This document shows, one piece after another, positions 1-5,744 of a DNA stretch of 5,842 nt. The position numbers were made by a program, and so were the translations under genes. The DNA lies in assembly GCA_030628225.1 (NCBI GenBank), contig DAOVRJ010000161.1, forward strand, positions 1-5,842, read 5' to 3'. Position 1 is the first letter of the stretch; each line of letters starts with the position of its first letter. The notes under the pieces were generated by a model. The model had not been told where the DNA came from, ran no database searches, and worked only from the letters and a program-made list of their open reading frames with translations. The stretch is from Candidatus Zixiibacteriota bacterium (GTDB lineage Bacteria > SM23-81).

Positions 1-219
1 GGCGGATTGATTCTGGGTCAGGCCCTGACTCACAATCAGATCTGGGCCGTTATCCTCGGATTTCTATGTATGGCCGGGACGTATGCGGGCATCAGGGTTC
101 TGGATCGCCGCATCAGCCGGTCAGCAAAGATGCGGCCGGAGATCGTCGAGATCGTGACCCGGTCCTCGCCAAAGGCATCGCTGGGTGGGGCAGATCGTGA
201 TGAAAAAGGTGTTCTTTAG
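1..219 (+). CDS. C-terminal fragment of a multi-pass membrane protein, probably EamA/DMT-family transporter
   Basis: The reading frame is open from base 1 and ends at TAG (217-219), so the gene begins outside the window; the TTG at 7-9 has no reason to be the start. The visible 72 residues hold one hydrophobic segment (about residues 14-31, from IWAVILGFLCMAGTYAG) followed by a basic, polar tail of about 40 residues. A G-x-x-L-T-x-x-Q-x-x-x-x-x-L-x-x-x-G pattern just before and in the helix resembles the last transmembrane helix of EamA (drug/metabolite transporter) proteins, where a GE-P-L-T-x-x-Q motif is typical; here the usual Glu is Gln. This family exports or imports small metabolites, but no substrate can be inferred. 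The gene is convergent with the large lyase gene and overlaps its stop by four bases. Family assignment rests on a single helix and is tentative; any polytopic membrane protein with a similar end is possible. Confidence 0.5.
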   Translation, partial: GGLILGQALTHNQIWAVILGFLCMAGTYAGIRVLDRRISRSAKMRPEIVEIVTRSSPKASLGGADRDEKGVL

Positions 220-3200
220 AACCGGAACCGGATAAAGCCGTCGTTGCGAATTCCGGTCAGGGGGCTCTTGGAAAAGAGCAGCCCCGGGCTGCAGGGGGAG
301 CCCGTCTGCCGGATCTCGATCTGGTAAGCTTCAAGGCGATATTCCTCGGTAAGCTCCAGCTCGGCCCGCCCCTTTATTCCCGCCCCTGCCCGGCCCGTAA
401 AATCCCCGTGCAGGGATAGTTGAGATCGCCTTTCACCTGCCGGTGGCCACAGACGGGACCAGCCGCATCCCCAGACTATTTTTCCCCAGAAGTTCACTCC
501 CAGTCCCCATTTAACCAATCTCCTCTGAATTGAGTTTCCCTCCAGATTCAAGTGGAGTCGGGTTGTCTTTTCCGCTCTCAGATGGGCCGAGAGGGCCAGA
601 TGAACAGCGTCGTTTCCTACGGATGAGTGATGCTGATGGGTTATGCTGGCAGCAGAGCTGATCCACCCGGCAAGATCTTGTTGGCAGGAGAGAAATTCTT
701 CGATGATGAAAGGTCTGGCCTGCTGGTGAAAGCTCGCTCGCAGAGTCCAACGAGAGCTGCCCCTTTGTCCAAGCAGAGTTGCCCAGCCGTATGATCCCAG
801 GCCATCCTGATAGCTGTTATACAATTGCCCGCTGAGAGTTTTCCCCCGGCCCAACACCTTGTTGTTCACTTCCCTAACATAGGGATCCTTTGATATTTGA
901 CCGAGCAGGGAGCTGAACTCCCAGACGACCCCCTTCATCGGGACGCTGGCCCAGCTCACTCTCAGATCCTTTCCTCCAGCAGCTCCCTGGTCCACTAGCT
1001 CCGCCTGGGGAAAGAAAGCCAGGCCGCTCCGGGAAAGGAATAGACGCCTCCCCAGAGCCCCTTGCGGATCTCGATATTGAGAGATCTCGGCCGTCAAAGT
1101 AGGCCCTCGTGCAAGGAAAATGACCCCGTAATCAGCAGAGCCATCTTGAGTGTATCCCTCTACTCCCCAGGTTGTCGGGCCCCGATAGTGGAAAGCTGAG
1201 AACTGCTTCCGCTCCGCGCCCTCCATTCTCTCCAACTCTGTGGCCACAGAAAAAGAGCCCAGGCCGAGATGGAGAGTTCTGTGTACCACCTCGGGGAAGG
1301 GTGAATACTGGCCCACTTTCACAGATCCCCAACTACCACGGGATAGTTGTCCCTCCAGCCGCTCCATTCTCCAGCCATTCTGTGTCAGACGTCCCTGCTG
1401 GGCGTAGGAGAGCTCCACCCAGGGCAGCCTCTTTTGACCCTCCAGGTGTTGGGGGAGGTTCAGCCGGGCCCAGTTATGTGGATCATAGGCCTGATCGGCC
1501 AGTCCGGTCACCAGGCCCAGGGCTTTGCTAAGGCCGTCCGGGCCCAGTCCCATCTTTTGACTCAACCCCCGTACCGGCTTGTTCATCTGTTCCAGGGTTA
1601 TATCCAGAGCCTGCCTGTTGGTCAGAAAACGCTGTTCGGGGCTAAGCTCTTCATATCGAGCCATTGGCTCTTTGTGCCAGGCCAGTTGCTCCAGAAAGGG
1701 ATACCGGTCCCTGGAACTCTGAGGGGTGAAGATCACAGGCGGACCATGACCCAGCTCCAGGGGGCCGGATCCTTTCAGCCGCAACTTCACTTTTCCGGCC
1801 CGGTACTCGTAGTCCACGGGAAACTGTCCAAAACGCACGTGGCCGGGGTCAAAGCCGGTCTCCATCTGGATGACCACCTCCTTCTGACCCGCGTCCACAT
1901 AGCCGGACCAGCGGTCCGTCCCCGTGATCATGCTCACCGTGATGGGCCGGTCGCTGATGTAGCAAGTGTCTGTCAGGTGGGCGTAAAAAGTGCCCTGTGC
2001 ACAGGTGAAAAACTCCCTTTGTCCGCTGATTCCCAAGCCGGTGACGCAGACCAAACCATCGGTGGTTATTCCTGCAGCAGAGGCCCTCTGTCCATCCGTG
2101 GCCACTAACAGATGACGGGCGCCGCCCAGACCCTCTCCGGAGATCTCCCGGGCCTGGGCCAGACCAGAGGAGAGGACAGGCAGATCGACGCATTCCAATT
2201 TGCAGAGCTCGTCTCTCTGGGGAAGGAGCAAGGTGGCGAAGTGGGCCTTTTTGCGCCGGGCCTTGCCGGCTCTGATGTAAGTGTGAGTTTCCCAGCTGCC
2301 GTAATGCGGGGTATTCTGGCCAGTTCTCAGGGATATCTGTGTGGGGGACCTTTCCGGTGACAGAAATTCAACCTGTAGCTTTCCCGTCCCCGGTGACCAG
2401 GAGACCCTTTCCGGCTCTTCCAGCCGAGCTTTTCCCATCCCATGTAGGACCAGTTGATAATCGTGGGGCTCAGCGGATTCCAGCCGGTCAAAGATCAGAA
2501 AATATCGCTGCCCCAGGAAATGGATGGTGCGCTGGATCTCGGTTCCCCGGTATCGGGCTCGCACCGCCGCACCGCTGATCTTGCTGCTGCGAAAGCAGTT
2601 AACCAGCTGTCCCCCCGGCTGGTCCGGGGAGAAGGGATTCATGTTGGGACCCTTGCCATCTACCAGGAGCATGTTGTGTCCCTCGGCCCCCAGGTACCAG
2701 GAACGGCCGGCACTGATCCTTCCCTGGGGGCCATAGCCTGTGTCGATGATCAGATCCTGGCCATGGGCCTGGAGCACGAAGTTGCCCGGGTCGATGTGTT
2801 CGTGGCCGCTGGCCAGGGTTTTTTTACCCTCACCCAAAAACAGCAGATAGATGCCCGATGCGGACCAGCCATCCCCGAAGACGGCCATGCCTCCGTCCGG
2901 GAAAAAGGTGGTTCTCTCCCAGGGGGGAGGCTGTGGGGGAACCCGGTCGTCGAAGGCGCAGATGTATTCCACCTCGTTGAGCTGTTCGCTGGTCGTGGCC
3001 GGCTGCCTCTCGTAAATCCAGCGGGCTATTCCTCCCAATCGGCTCTGTCCCACCAGAATAGGAAGGAAGTGATGCTGTTTCTGCCAGGTGTCGTCGAAGA
3101 GGGGAATGGAACCGTTGGGTTTGCCTATTCTGATCAGCCACTGGGCCAGATCCTGGAAACGGCGATGTTCGAAGAGGTCGTACGCGGTGGTATTTTTCAA

Positions 3201-4142
3201 ATACAGGGCGAAGGGAAAGATAAGTCTGGAGATGTATCCGGCGTAGAAGACACCTTCCCGGTAAGAGCCGTCCCTGTCGATCTGGGCCAGGCCGCTGCGC
3301 AGATTGGCCATGGCGGCGTCTAACCAGGCCTGTGACTCTGTTGACCCATAGGCTGGGATGGTCAGGGCGGCGGTGCCCACCGCCACGGCCATGATGGTCT
3401 TATGGTTGTTGGGAGGGGCGAACTTCAGATTTTTATAGAGCTGATCCGCCTCGGCGGCCAGTTTTTCCGTCACCAGCCGGCGGTCTTGAGCGGAGAGGTC
3501 CTGGGCCACCAGATCATAGGCCACACAGTAGATGAGCATTAAGGCTGAGGCCCGCACCCAATCTCCCCAGCCCTGTCCCATTTTGCCTCCCTCCGGGGTG
3601 GTCACTGCCGGGGGAGGGGAGATGTGCAACAGACCCTGGCGGGCCTTATCCAGAAAGGGGAGCTCTCCGGTGACCAGGTAGGCAAAAGCGCAACTTTTGG
3701 CCGCGGTGGCCCGTCGGGATTCATCCAACCGGCGGTCTGAGAGATCCTGCGTAAGGCTGCTCTCAGCCCGCCGAAGGACGATGCGCCACCAGCGGGCATA
3801 GGGCTCCCGGAGCGTCCTTTGGCGGATGAGTTCTTTTTGGTTTTCGGAGAAGAGCAAGCAGGGATGTTGCTCGGCGGGCAGGGCAATGCCGGGCAGGAAT
3901 ACTTCTTCCAAGGGCAGGAAATCCGCCAGGCCATAGGCCCGGTAATCGCCGGTGGCGATGCTCTCCAGGGCCATTTGCCCGGCCCTTTCGGCCGCGGAAA
4001 AAAGTTTTCTCAGGCCGCTGGTCGAGGCCGGTTCTCTGGTCGAGCTGTATTCTTGAGCCCGGGTCGAGCCGGATCCGCTCAGCAGGATCAGGCTGGCAAG
4101 ACCTGTGACCCACCATTTTACCGGTGAGTGTTTTCCGGGCAT
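216..4142 (-). CDS. Exported heparinase II/III-type polysaccharide lyase fused to a C-terminal outer-membrane beta-barrel
   Basis: Predicted 1308-residue exported protein (numbering from the ATG at 4142). Residues 1-29 form a Sec signal peptide: basic start, hydrophobic core WVTGLASLILLSG, likely cleavage after STRA. Residues about 90-400 are helix-rich and match the alpha/alpha-toroid of heparinase II/III and alginate lyase families, opening with HPCLLF and carrying NNH (245-247) and DGSYREG (291-297) followed by Tyr300 and Tyr303. Residues about 410-680 are the beta-sandwich, with SGHEHIDPGNF (445-455), IIDTGYG and EGHNMLLVDG (487-496). In this family Asn/His, Tyr and a beta-domain His carry out beta-elimination on uronic-acid polysaccharides, so the enzyme is probably active; the substrate is unknown. 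More beta-rich sequence follows to about 800, then a helical stretch, then about 400 residues of short amphipathic strands ending in GFIRFRF, a typical outer-membrane C-terminal strand. ATG 4142 is preferred over GTG 4160 because it has AGGGA eight bases upstream and gives a normal signal peptide; the GTG has no clear ribosome site. The lyase call is strong and the barrel call is by eye. Confidence 0.88.
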   Translation of the reverse strand: MPGKHSPVKWWVTGLASLILLSGSGSTRAQEYSSTREPASTSGLRKLFSAAERAGQMALESIATGDYRAYGLADFLPLEEVFLPGIALPAEQHPCLLFSENQKELIRQRTLREPYARWWRIVLRRAESSLTQDLSDRRLDESRRATAAKSCAFAYLVTGELPFLDKARQGLLHISPPPAVTTPEGGKMGQGWGDWVRASALMLIYCVAYDLVAQDLSAQDRRLVTEKLAAEADQLYKNLKFAPPNNHKTIMAVAVGTAALTIPAYGSTESQAWLDAAMANLRSGLAQIDRDGSYREGVFYAGYISRLIFPFALYLKNTTAYDLFEHRRFQDLAQWLIRIGKPNGSIPLFDDTWQKQHHFLPILVGQSRLGGIARWIYERQPATTSEQLNEVEYICAFDDRVPPQPPPWERTTFFPDGGMAVFGDGWSASGIYLLFLGEGKKTLASGHEHIDPGNFVLQAHGQDLIIDTGYGPQGRISAGRSWYLGAEGHNMLLVDGKGPNMNPFSPDQPGGQLVNCFRSSKISGAAVRARYRGTEIQRTIHFLGQRYFLIFDRLESAEPHDYQLVLHGMGKARLEEPERVSWSPGTGKLQVEFLSPERSPTQISLRTGQNTPHYGSWETHTYIRAGKARRKKAHFATLLLPQRDELCKLECVDLPVLSSGLAQAREISGEGLGGARHLLVATDGQRASAAGITTDGLVCVTGLGISGQREFFTCAQGTFYAHLTDTCYISDRPITVSMITGTDRWSGYVDAGQKEVVIQMETGFDPGHVRFGQFPVDYEYRAGKVKLRLKGSGPLELGHGPPVIFTPQSSRDRYPFLEQLAWHKEPMARYEELSPEQRFLTNRQALDITLEQMNKPVRGLSQKMGLGPDGLSKALGLVTGLADQAYDPHNWARLNLPQHLEGQKRLPWVELSYAQQGRLTQNGWRMERLEGQLSRGSWGSVKVGQYSPFPEVVHRTLHLGLGSFSVATELERMEGAERKQFSAFHYRGPTTWGVEGYTQDGSADYGVIFLARGPTLTAEISQYRDPQGALGRRLFLSRSGLAFFPQAELVDQGAAGGKDLRVSWASVPMKGVVWEFSSLLGQISKDPYVREVNNKVLGRGKTLSGQLYNSYQDGLGSYGWATLLGQRGSSRWTLRASFHQQARPFIIEEFLSCQQDLAGWISSAASITHQHHSSVGNDAVHLALSAHLRAEKTTRLHLNLEGNSIQRRLVKWGLGVNFWGKIVWGCGWSRLWPPAGERRSQLSLHGDFTGRAGAGIKGRAELELTEEYRLEAYQIEIRQTGSPCSPGLLFSKSPLTGIRNDGFIRFRF

Positions 4143-4155: not shown

Positions 4156-4175
4156 GGCACGAGATTCTCTGTTGG

Positions 4176-4338: not shown

Positions 4339-5157
4339 CTATTGCAGGGTGAAGTCGAGCCTGGTCACCTGGCCCTCGGTCAAGGTGACGGTGTCCACAG
4401 CGGCGGTGTAACCCTGTTTGCTGGCCGAGACGATGAAACGATCGGTGAGCTCCCATGTGGCCTCAGAGTAAGGCCAGTTGTCCGGGTAGGAGATGGGGTG
4501 CAGAGGAGCCACTACAATCGTGTTGTGCAGAAGGATATTCAGGGGCACGTCCTCGATGACATATTTTCCGCTAGACGGGGTGCTGACCGTATAGGATTGC
4601 AATCCTCCCTCGCTGGCGATATTGATCCCTTTGGACAGGGCGATCTTGACCGTGGTGGTATCCCCTGAAAAGACGGCCGTAATTTCACAGGGGTAAAGAC
4701 CATCGACCAGAACTGAATCCTGCAGGTCCTGGCCGTTAAAATAAATCTTGTTAGGCCCTTGAGCGGTGGAGGCGTCGAGGAACTCCTGCCGCAGATCATG
4801 CCGCAGGTCGTAGATGGAGATGCTCACCGATTGTGTGGTTTCAGTGCCCAAAAAGTAGGTCAAATATGTGTCCGAGGTGAAGGGATTGGGGTAGTTCATG
4901 AAACCAGATAACGATTGGGATTCTGCAGCTGCCTGAATTCGTGCCGAAGGCGCCGGGGAGATACAGACCGTGACCCCTTCCAGGTTCGCGCCAGTCGAGT
5001 TCTTCACGAAACCGGCCACCAGTCCACAATATTGATTGTTGTTGGATACGTTCAAGCCATCTTCCGGACCGGTGCCTTTATCATTGCAACCCACTAGCAA
5101 TAACCCCGGCAACAGAGCAGCCAGGACCAGGGTGGTGGGCCATGTTTTGGGTTTCAC
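4339..5157 (-). CDS. Envelope lipoprotein with a FlgD-like (NYPNPF) module nested in a carboxypeptidase-regulatory-like domain
   Basis: Predicted 272-residue lipoprotein; no known enzyme function. The signal peptide ends in a lipobox, LLLVGC, with Cys24 as the lipidated residue followed by NDKGTG. Residues 44-68 (GLVAGFVKNSTGANLEGVTV) look like the first strands of a carboxypeptidase-regulatory-like beta-sandwich (G-x-V-x-x-x-x-G-x-x-L-x-G-V-x-V). Residues about 83-172 form a second module with NYPNPF (88-93), SISIYDL (112-118) and LVDGLYPCEI (150-159), the signature of FlgD-like Ig folds and type IX secretion sorting-like domains. Residues about 186-272 (TVSTPSSGKYVIEDVP, then FIVSASKQGY and a closing LDFTLQ) look like the rest of the first domain. 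GTG is the start: GAAGGA lies eight bases upstream and there is no other start codon near the signal peptide. Its own promoter precedes it. It could be a surface-binding or structural protein; that role is inference. Confidence 0.82.
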   Translation of the reverse strand: MKPKTWPTTLVLAALLPGLLLVGCNDKGTGPEDGLNVSNNNQYCGLVAGFVKNSTGANLEGVTVCISPAPSARIQAAAESQSLSGFMNYPNPFTSDTYLTYFLGTETTQSVSISIYDLRHDLRQEFLDASTAQGPNKIYFNGQDLQDSVLVDGLYPCEITAVFSGDTTTVKIALSKGINIASEGGLQSYTVSTPSSGKYVIEDVPLNILLHNTIVVAPLHPISYPDNWPYSEATWELTDRFIVSASKQGYTAAVDTVTLTEGQVTRLDFTLQ

Positions 5158-5218: not shown

Positions 5219-5247
5219 AGTATAGCACAGGATGATTCGTTTGTCAA
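5219..5247 (-). promoter_or_regulatory. Strong sigma-70-like promoter for the lipoprotein gene
   Basis: Minus-strand TTGACA (5247-5242), a 17-base spacer and TATACT (5224-5219): consensus -35 and a five-of-six -10. Transcription should begin near 5212, giving a leader of about 55 bases. The -35 box contains the TGA stop codon of queT (5246-5244), so the promoter starts inside the upstream gene. It shows the lipoprotein gene need not depend on queT transcription. Confidence 0.75.
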
Positions 5248-5744
5248 TGAGAATTTCCGTCCTGCCGCCCCCTTCTTTTCAGCAAGACGATCAACAGGGG
5301 ATAGCCCACCAGGTAACAGGCCACCGCCTGTCCGATACCCACGGCCAGGAAGGTGGATAGATAGGGAATGCCGCCGATGAGGGGAATACCGGTCATGGTG
5401 GGCAGGTAAAAGGAAAGGCCCACGGCATTGACCAGAATGGGGGGCAGGGGGGCCAGCCAGGGACGGCGCGCCCGGGCGGTCAGCAGGGCGGCGATGAGGG
5501 TCAGTATGCTGCCCACCAAAACGTCCAGAAGTCCGAAAGGTCCGAAGATGTTGGCGATGGCACAACCCAGGGTCAGGCCGGGAATAGCCGCTGGATAGAG
5601 AAAGGGCAGAACGGTGAGCGCCTCTGAAATTCTGACCTGCAGCGGACCGTAGCTGAAGGGGTGAAAGGCTATGGTCAGCCCGGCATAAAGGGCGGCGATG
5701 ATGCCCGTCCGGGCAAGAAATCTGACGGTAATTTTTTTCTTCAT
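5244..5744 (-). CDS. queT: QueT-family queuosine-precursor transporter (ECF substrate-binding subunit)
   Basis: Predicted 166-residue integral membrane protein, the usual size for QueT. Family hallmarks are visible: YGPLQVRISEALTVLPF (32-48), PAAIPGLTLGCAIANIFG (51-68) and GLLDVLVGSILTL (71-83). About five to six hydrophobic segments run through the protein, between a basic start (MKKK) and a basic end (LLKRRGRQ). QueT proteins are taken to be the substrate-specific S components of energy-coupling-factor importers for precursors of the tRNA nucleoside queuosine; the shared ATPase and T subunits would be encoded elsewhere, and none is in the window. ATG 5744 has AGGA six bases upstream (5754-5751). 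No preQ1 riboswitch is recognisable in the 98 upstream bases available, although such control is common for this family in Firmicutes. The gene ends inside the next gene's -35 box and no hairpin terminator follows it. The family call is firm; the exact substrate is by homology only. Confidence 0.88.
   Translation of the reverse strand: MKKKITVRFLARTGIIAALYAGLTIAFHPFSYGPLQVRISEALTVLPFLYPAAIPGLTLGCAIANIFGPFGLLDVLVGSILTLIAALLTARARRPWLAPLPPILVNAVGLSFYLPTMTGIPLIGGIPYLSTFLAVGIGQAVACYLVGYPLLIVLLKRRGRQDGNSH

Follow-up and report, generated by a model that had tools for sequence, protein, structure and literature searches.

We have identified, in a draft genome of a Candidatus Zixiibacteriota bacterium, a single gene encoding a lyase homologous to the alginate lyase Dp0100 of family PL39 and, in the same polypeptide of 1308 residues, a C-terminal region that very likely folds as an outer-membrane beta-barrel. 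This lyase-tail architecture occurs in three bacterial phyla. Fusions of an enzyme with an outer-membrane barrel are in general already known, the enzymes being chiefly lipases, esterases, and proteases, and our literature searches, which covered open-licence papers, found no case in which a polysaccharide lyase has a barrel of its own. The interest of the fusion lies in the enzyme class, in a barrel belonging to no classified family, and in the spread over three phyla; at the fold level, the case is not proven.

The fusion gene and its surroundings

The window, namely the whole stretch of DNA analysed here, is an entire contig of 5842 bases from a draft genome (G000) of 2.34 Mb in 306 contigs. 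The open reading frame of the fusion is intact, starting with ATG at 4142 and stopping at 216-218, and an in-frame GTG is present at 4160. The features of the gene and its upstream neighbour are as follows.

216..4142, minus strand: lyase-barrel fusion gene (barrel probable), 1308 aa, with a full-length orthologue in G001
4056..4142, minus strand: signal-peptide-like N-terminus, residues 1-29, recognised by eye (K/R, a hydrophobic stretch, S-T-R-A, then Q-E)
1803..3875, minus strand: PL39-like lyase module, residues about 90-780 (phmmer to 6JPH/6JP4; Pfam; Foldseek)
3402..3404, minus strand: H247 (PNNH motif), invariant across the five homologues
3261..3263, minus strand: Y294 of YREG, where PL39 enzymes have their catalytic acid, likewise invariant across the five
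2802..2804, minus strand: H447 of GHEH, also invariant across the five and matching the ADNH-motif His of PL39 in the alignment
1458..1802, minus strand: linker, residues 781-895, its second half predicted to be largely helical, 71% identical to the orthologue
219..1457, minus strand: C-terminal region, residues 896-1308, a probable outer-membrane beta-barrel (pattern, composition, classifier, low-confidence model)
219..239, minus strand: C-terminal GFIRFRF, a BAM-type terminal signature (compared with same-genome Omp85 ends and soluble controls)
4339..5157, minus strand: lipoprotein gene with the lipobox LVGC, directly upstream of the fusion, with a CarboxypepD_reg end and an FlgD_ig-like piece

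A preliminary description of the window had assigned positions 216-1440 to the C-terminal part of a lyase protein that runs to residue 1308 and ends in GFIRFRF; indeed, residue 902 is encoded at window 1437-1439, and the length and the last residues are as read in the translated frame. The orthologue in candidate division Zixibacteria bacterium SM23_81 (G001, contig LJUY01000085.1) is full-length and 62% identical, with an amino-acid identity of 68% in the lyase and 53% in the tail. At the first, second, and third codon positions of the tail, the fractions identical between these genes are 0.66, 0.73, and 0.44, respectively, a pattern indicating that the tail is protein-coding and under selection.

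Given that an orthologue of the lipoprotein gene is found at the matching place in G001 (locus L004), the lipoprotein is a possible partner of the fusion. On the plus strand, an RseC/MucC-type gene (PF04246 at the orthologous locus), of which window 1-219 holds the end, overlaps the stop codon of the fusion (216-218, minus strand) tail to tail by two bases, and a close convergent pair of these genes is also present in G001. A QueT-type transporter gene (PF06177, E 3e-44) lies at window 5244-5744 on the minus strand; neither a preQ1 riboswitch nor any other Rfam match was found in the window. The fusion loci differ in gene content between phyla and no polysaccharide gene cluster was seen at any of them, the two closest contigs being only about 6 kb long, so that gene neighbourhoods were set aside as a clue to function. 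In both genomes of the second phylum (L021 and L030), the neighbours of the fusion gene are a pair of enoyl-CoA hydratase genes and one gene for a multihaem cytochrome like c554, arranged in a different order in each.

The lyase module

Residues 90-759 of the fusion protein were aligned by phmmer with residues 22-728 of Dp0100, the founding member of PL39 (PDB 6JPH/6JP4; E 1e-38; about 24% identity), and Dp0100 was also ranked first by Foldseek when our first AlphaFold model was used as the query. The module is composed of a toroid, a central beta-sheet, and a C-terminal beta-sandwich and can be aligned to Dp0100 along its length. The preliminary description had the lyase part ending before residue 810, which fits the extent of this match; judging from the sequence, the module ends near residue 780. 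It had also called the protein a heparinase II/III lyase. At the superfamily level this name holds, with Pfam matches to PF07940 (Hepar_II_III_C) and PF16332 (DUF4962), but PL39-like, after the alginate lyase Dp0100, is a better description than heparinase. A five-row profile also matches PL15 and PL17 alginate lyases, heparinase III, and dermatan sulfate epimerase.

All five homologues retain the motifs PNNH, YREG, and HE[HQ], and H247, Y294, and H447 are invariant among them. For PL39, a published account assigns the role of acid to the Tyr of YREG and that of base to a His (PMC10056287). On these conserved motifs the lyase is predicted to be active, and it probably cuts acidic sugar chains, for which putative alginate-like uronates are the best guess. 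Among characterised enzymes, Dp0100 (PL39; PDB 6JP4, 6JPH, 6JPN) shares the whole lyase module together with PNNH-like, YREG, and HxH motifs, but it comes from a Firmicute and has no barrel; AlyRm3 carries an FlgD-like tail and likewise has no barrel (PMC10056287). The host itself encodes another heparinase-family protein (L022:3482-6205, G000 contig C173) with a CBM96-like and an Ig-like domain; its gene adjoins those of a glycosyltransferase and a sigma-54-type regulator, in what looks like an exopolysaccharide locus.

Relatives and origin of the architecture

Whole-genome protein searches revealed three distant full-length relatives in addition to the orthologue: proteins of 1228 aa (G010, JAOADG010000032.1) and 1246 aa (G082) in a second phylum and of 1255 aa (G233, JAUIFJ010000003.1) in a third. 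All five fusions consist of the lyase, the linker, and an unbroken tail of 389-412 residues that ends in Phe or Trp. In a survey of 386 genomes, PF07940 was matched in 82, roughly 150 times in total. The same layout as first described from the window is found in five full-length members. Of the 12 other heparinase-family proteins with open frames longer than 1040 aa, ten were read (all but G185:C59 and G001:C71), and none of these ten had such a tail. When the phylum of G038 was searched more densely, just ordinary lyases of 312-894 aa came up.

In a tree of the lyase parts (the five fusions, Dp0100, and 25 other lyases), the fusions form a clade of their own, set apart by a branch with a support of 100/99, while Dp0100, whose branch is long, joins the other lyases at an open fork; this tree contains long branches, and its homologues were picked by similarity to the fusion itself. 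The simplest reading of these sequences is that the fusion arose once. We had also considered showing the homology of the tails by sequence, but this was dropped after held-out HMM and hhalign tests across the three lineages were negative; homology of the tails across lineages rests instead on their position, their length, and the lyase tree. A tail without a lyase, which the preliminary description had suggested looking for, was not found above noise when a tail profile was run against the 386 genomes; only fusions were matched, the four present there doing so by construction, and the best other match had an E of 0.007 over 50 positions.

Evidence for a probable outer-membrane barrel

Several independent yet indirect tests, as well as the conservation of the architecture in three phyla, support the assignment of the tail as a barrel. 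First, the period-2 pattern of hydrophobicity in the tail exceeds that of shuffled sequences in all five homologues (z of 2.1, 2.5, 2.2, 3.6, and 2.9), while the helical toroid parts of the same five proteins give z of -2.0 to 0.1. For reference, z ranges from -0.3 to 2.4 in Omp85 proteins of the same genome and from -0.6 to 2.0 at the ends of soluble lyases, and the signal of the five tails is on average at least that of the Omp85 proteins. Counting of amphipathic 10-mers was, in contrast, uninformative, with the count in this tail not above shuffles (z 0.02).

Second, a small classifier was trained on Omp85 and FadL barrels versus segments of soluble lyases, with a leave-one-out AUC of 0.95; when trained on Omp85 alone, it transferred poorly to FadL, recognising just 52% of that set. 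It scored this tail at 0.90 and the two stretches before the tail at 0.23 and 0.30, and the other four tails obtained 0.86, 0.47 (G010), 0.77, and 0.97.

Third, a terminal aromatic residue with hydrophobic residues at -3 and -5 is present in all five fusions, which end in GFIRFRF, GFLKFLF, GGFVFNW, GGISLRW, and GSVVWQW, versus 2% of 50 soluble heparinase-family proteins. The host genome contains seven Omp85 matches, five of which clearly end in Phe; nine such matches were found in G001, six in G010, and six in G054, a genome of the same family as G233 that stands in for it. With Omp85 proteins encoded in each of G000, G001, and G010, these hosts are considered diderm, and homologues in monoderm hosts, a finding that the preliminary description had held to be incompatible with a barrel, were not seen.

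Searches for a known family were empty. At E up to 1, none of the five tails matched a Pfam family, be it the autotransporter domain PF03797 or an accessory domain; the Omp85 barrel PF01103 and POTRA were matched neither in the whole protein nor in any tail, and residues about 896-1308 had no PDB match by sequence. The tail was accordingly rejected as a member of a known barrel family, and the Pfam search of the C-terminal region proposed at the outset points to neither a known barrel nor an accessory domain.

Structure prediction was also of low confidence. AlphaFold with five alignment rows gave an overall pLDDT of 40, and a second model of residues 868-1308 with two rows gave a pLDDT of 30 and a meander of about 20 strands; the low confidence probably arises from having just two to five alignment rows. 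The models yield, therefore, no proof of a barrel and no confident closed barrel, yet no confident soluble fold either, and the 16-20 strands counted by eye in the preliminary description compare with about 20 in low-confidence models only. When the second model was searched with VIA-align, the top rows included Tom40, PapC, PorB, OmpU, chitoporin, OccK channels, BamA, and LptD; the rows were mostly membrane barrels (best Z 8.9, rmsd 7.6 over 207 residues), but for a model of such low confidence these structural matches are suggestive only. Foldseek with the tail model found nothing significant, the first rows being beta-rich soluble enzymes. Of the proposed combination of a lyase with a C-terminal outer-membrane barrel, then, the lyase stands and the barrel is supported by pattern, composition, terminal signature, and the Omp85 proteins of the hosts, but not by a confident closed-barrel model.

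Topology and possible roles

We lean, by a modest preponderance, toward a barrel that tethers the lyase at the outer membrane with the enzyme facing the periplasm; whichever side it faces, the enzyme is probably attached to the outer membrane rather than free. The fusion protein would be exported by Sec, and the barrel (about 896-1308) would be inserted by BAM via the C-terminal strand with its terminal Phe signature. The lyase (about 90-780), N-terminal to the barrel, would then have its own anchor in the outer membrane and stay periplasmic, held at the barrel mouth by the helix-rich linker, where it may cleave uronate-containing chains by beta-elimination with Tyr/His chemistry. The closest studied arrangement, and the one known in most detail among fusions with the enzyme ahead of the barrel, is PlpD, which together with FplA represents the type Vd patatin-barrel proteins of the Omp85 superfamily. 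These also have an N-terminal enzyme and a C-terminal barrel in one exported protein, whereas their enzyme differs from our lyase and the fusion has no POTRA or Omp85 match. The enzyme domain of PlpD has been shown to remain in the periplasm (PMC11116518). It is on this precedent, together with the ten Cys residues counted N-terminal to the barrel region and the size of the tail, that the periplasm-facing tether is favoured.

Alternatively, the barrel and BAM might pass the lyase to the surface, where the attached enzyme would degrade external polysaccharide as in an autotransporter. The order of signal, enzyme, helix-rich linker, probable barrel, and terminal Phe is indeed common to the fusion and classical autotransporters with enzyme passengers such as EstA; the fusion differs, however, in lacking PF03797 in any tail, in its passenger fold, and in its larger tail. 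The usual autotransporter barrel is a 12-strand unit of about 280 residues, as compared with the 389-412 residues here, and typical autotransporter passengers are unlike a compact multi-domain lyase with ten Cys residues ahead of the barrel. The Cys residues and the tail size argue mildly against a classical autotransporter, and we regard surface display as unlikely.

Less likely again is that acidic chains, or fragments of them, pass through the barrel as a pore, with the lyase at its periplasmic mouth cutting the passing material. This reading is in line with the retention of a single-protein fusion across three phyla and with the weak structural matches, which include OccK-type acid channels and chitoporin (Z about 7, low-confidence model), but genes for the use or synthesis of polysaccharides are found beside none of the fusions. 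In the export systems AlgL/AlgE and PelA/PelB, a polysaccharide-cutting enzyme is likewise placed beside an outer-membrane barrel, whereas there the enzyme and the barrel are separate proteins encoded in synthesis clusters and the fusion is one protein with no cluster.

The least likely reading is a secreted or periplasmic lyase with a soluble tail, rich in beta-structure, that has an accessory or binding role; related lyases often have accessory beta-domains (CBM96 or FlgD-like, for example). This reading would agree with the want of a confident barrel model and with the non-significant Foldseek rows but not with one unbroken tail in all five proteins, with the empty search for accessory domains, or with a pattern, composition, and terminal aromatic signature that favour barrels.

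Conclusions

In addition to the favoured periplasm-facing tether, we consider a more far-reaching possibility, namely a single-protein cut-and-pass device in which the barrel would be a channel dedicated to acidic polysaccharides and the lyase at its periplasmic mouth would cut the chain entering or leaving. The tail would then represent a new family of barrels that was fused to the lyase a single time and has since come to be present in at least three diderm phyla; this seems unlikely. If the assignment of the barrel is true, the tail marks a barrel family missed by current domain libraries. The fusion would then also offer a compact test of cleavage coupled to passage through a pore and would show how lineages with no obvious polysaccharide clusters keep a lyase at the outer membrane.
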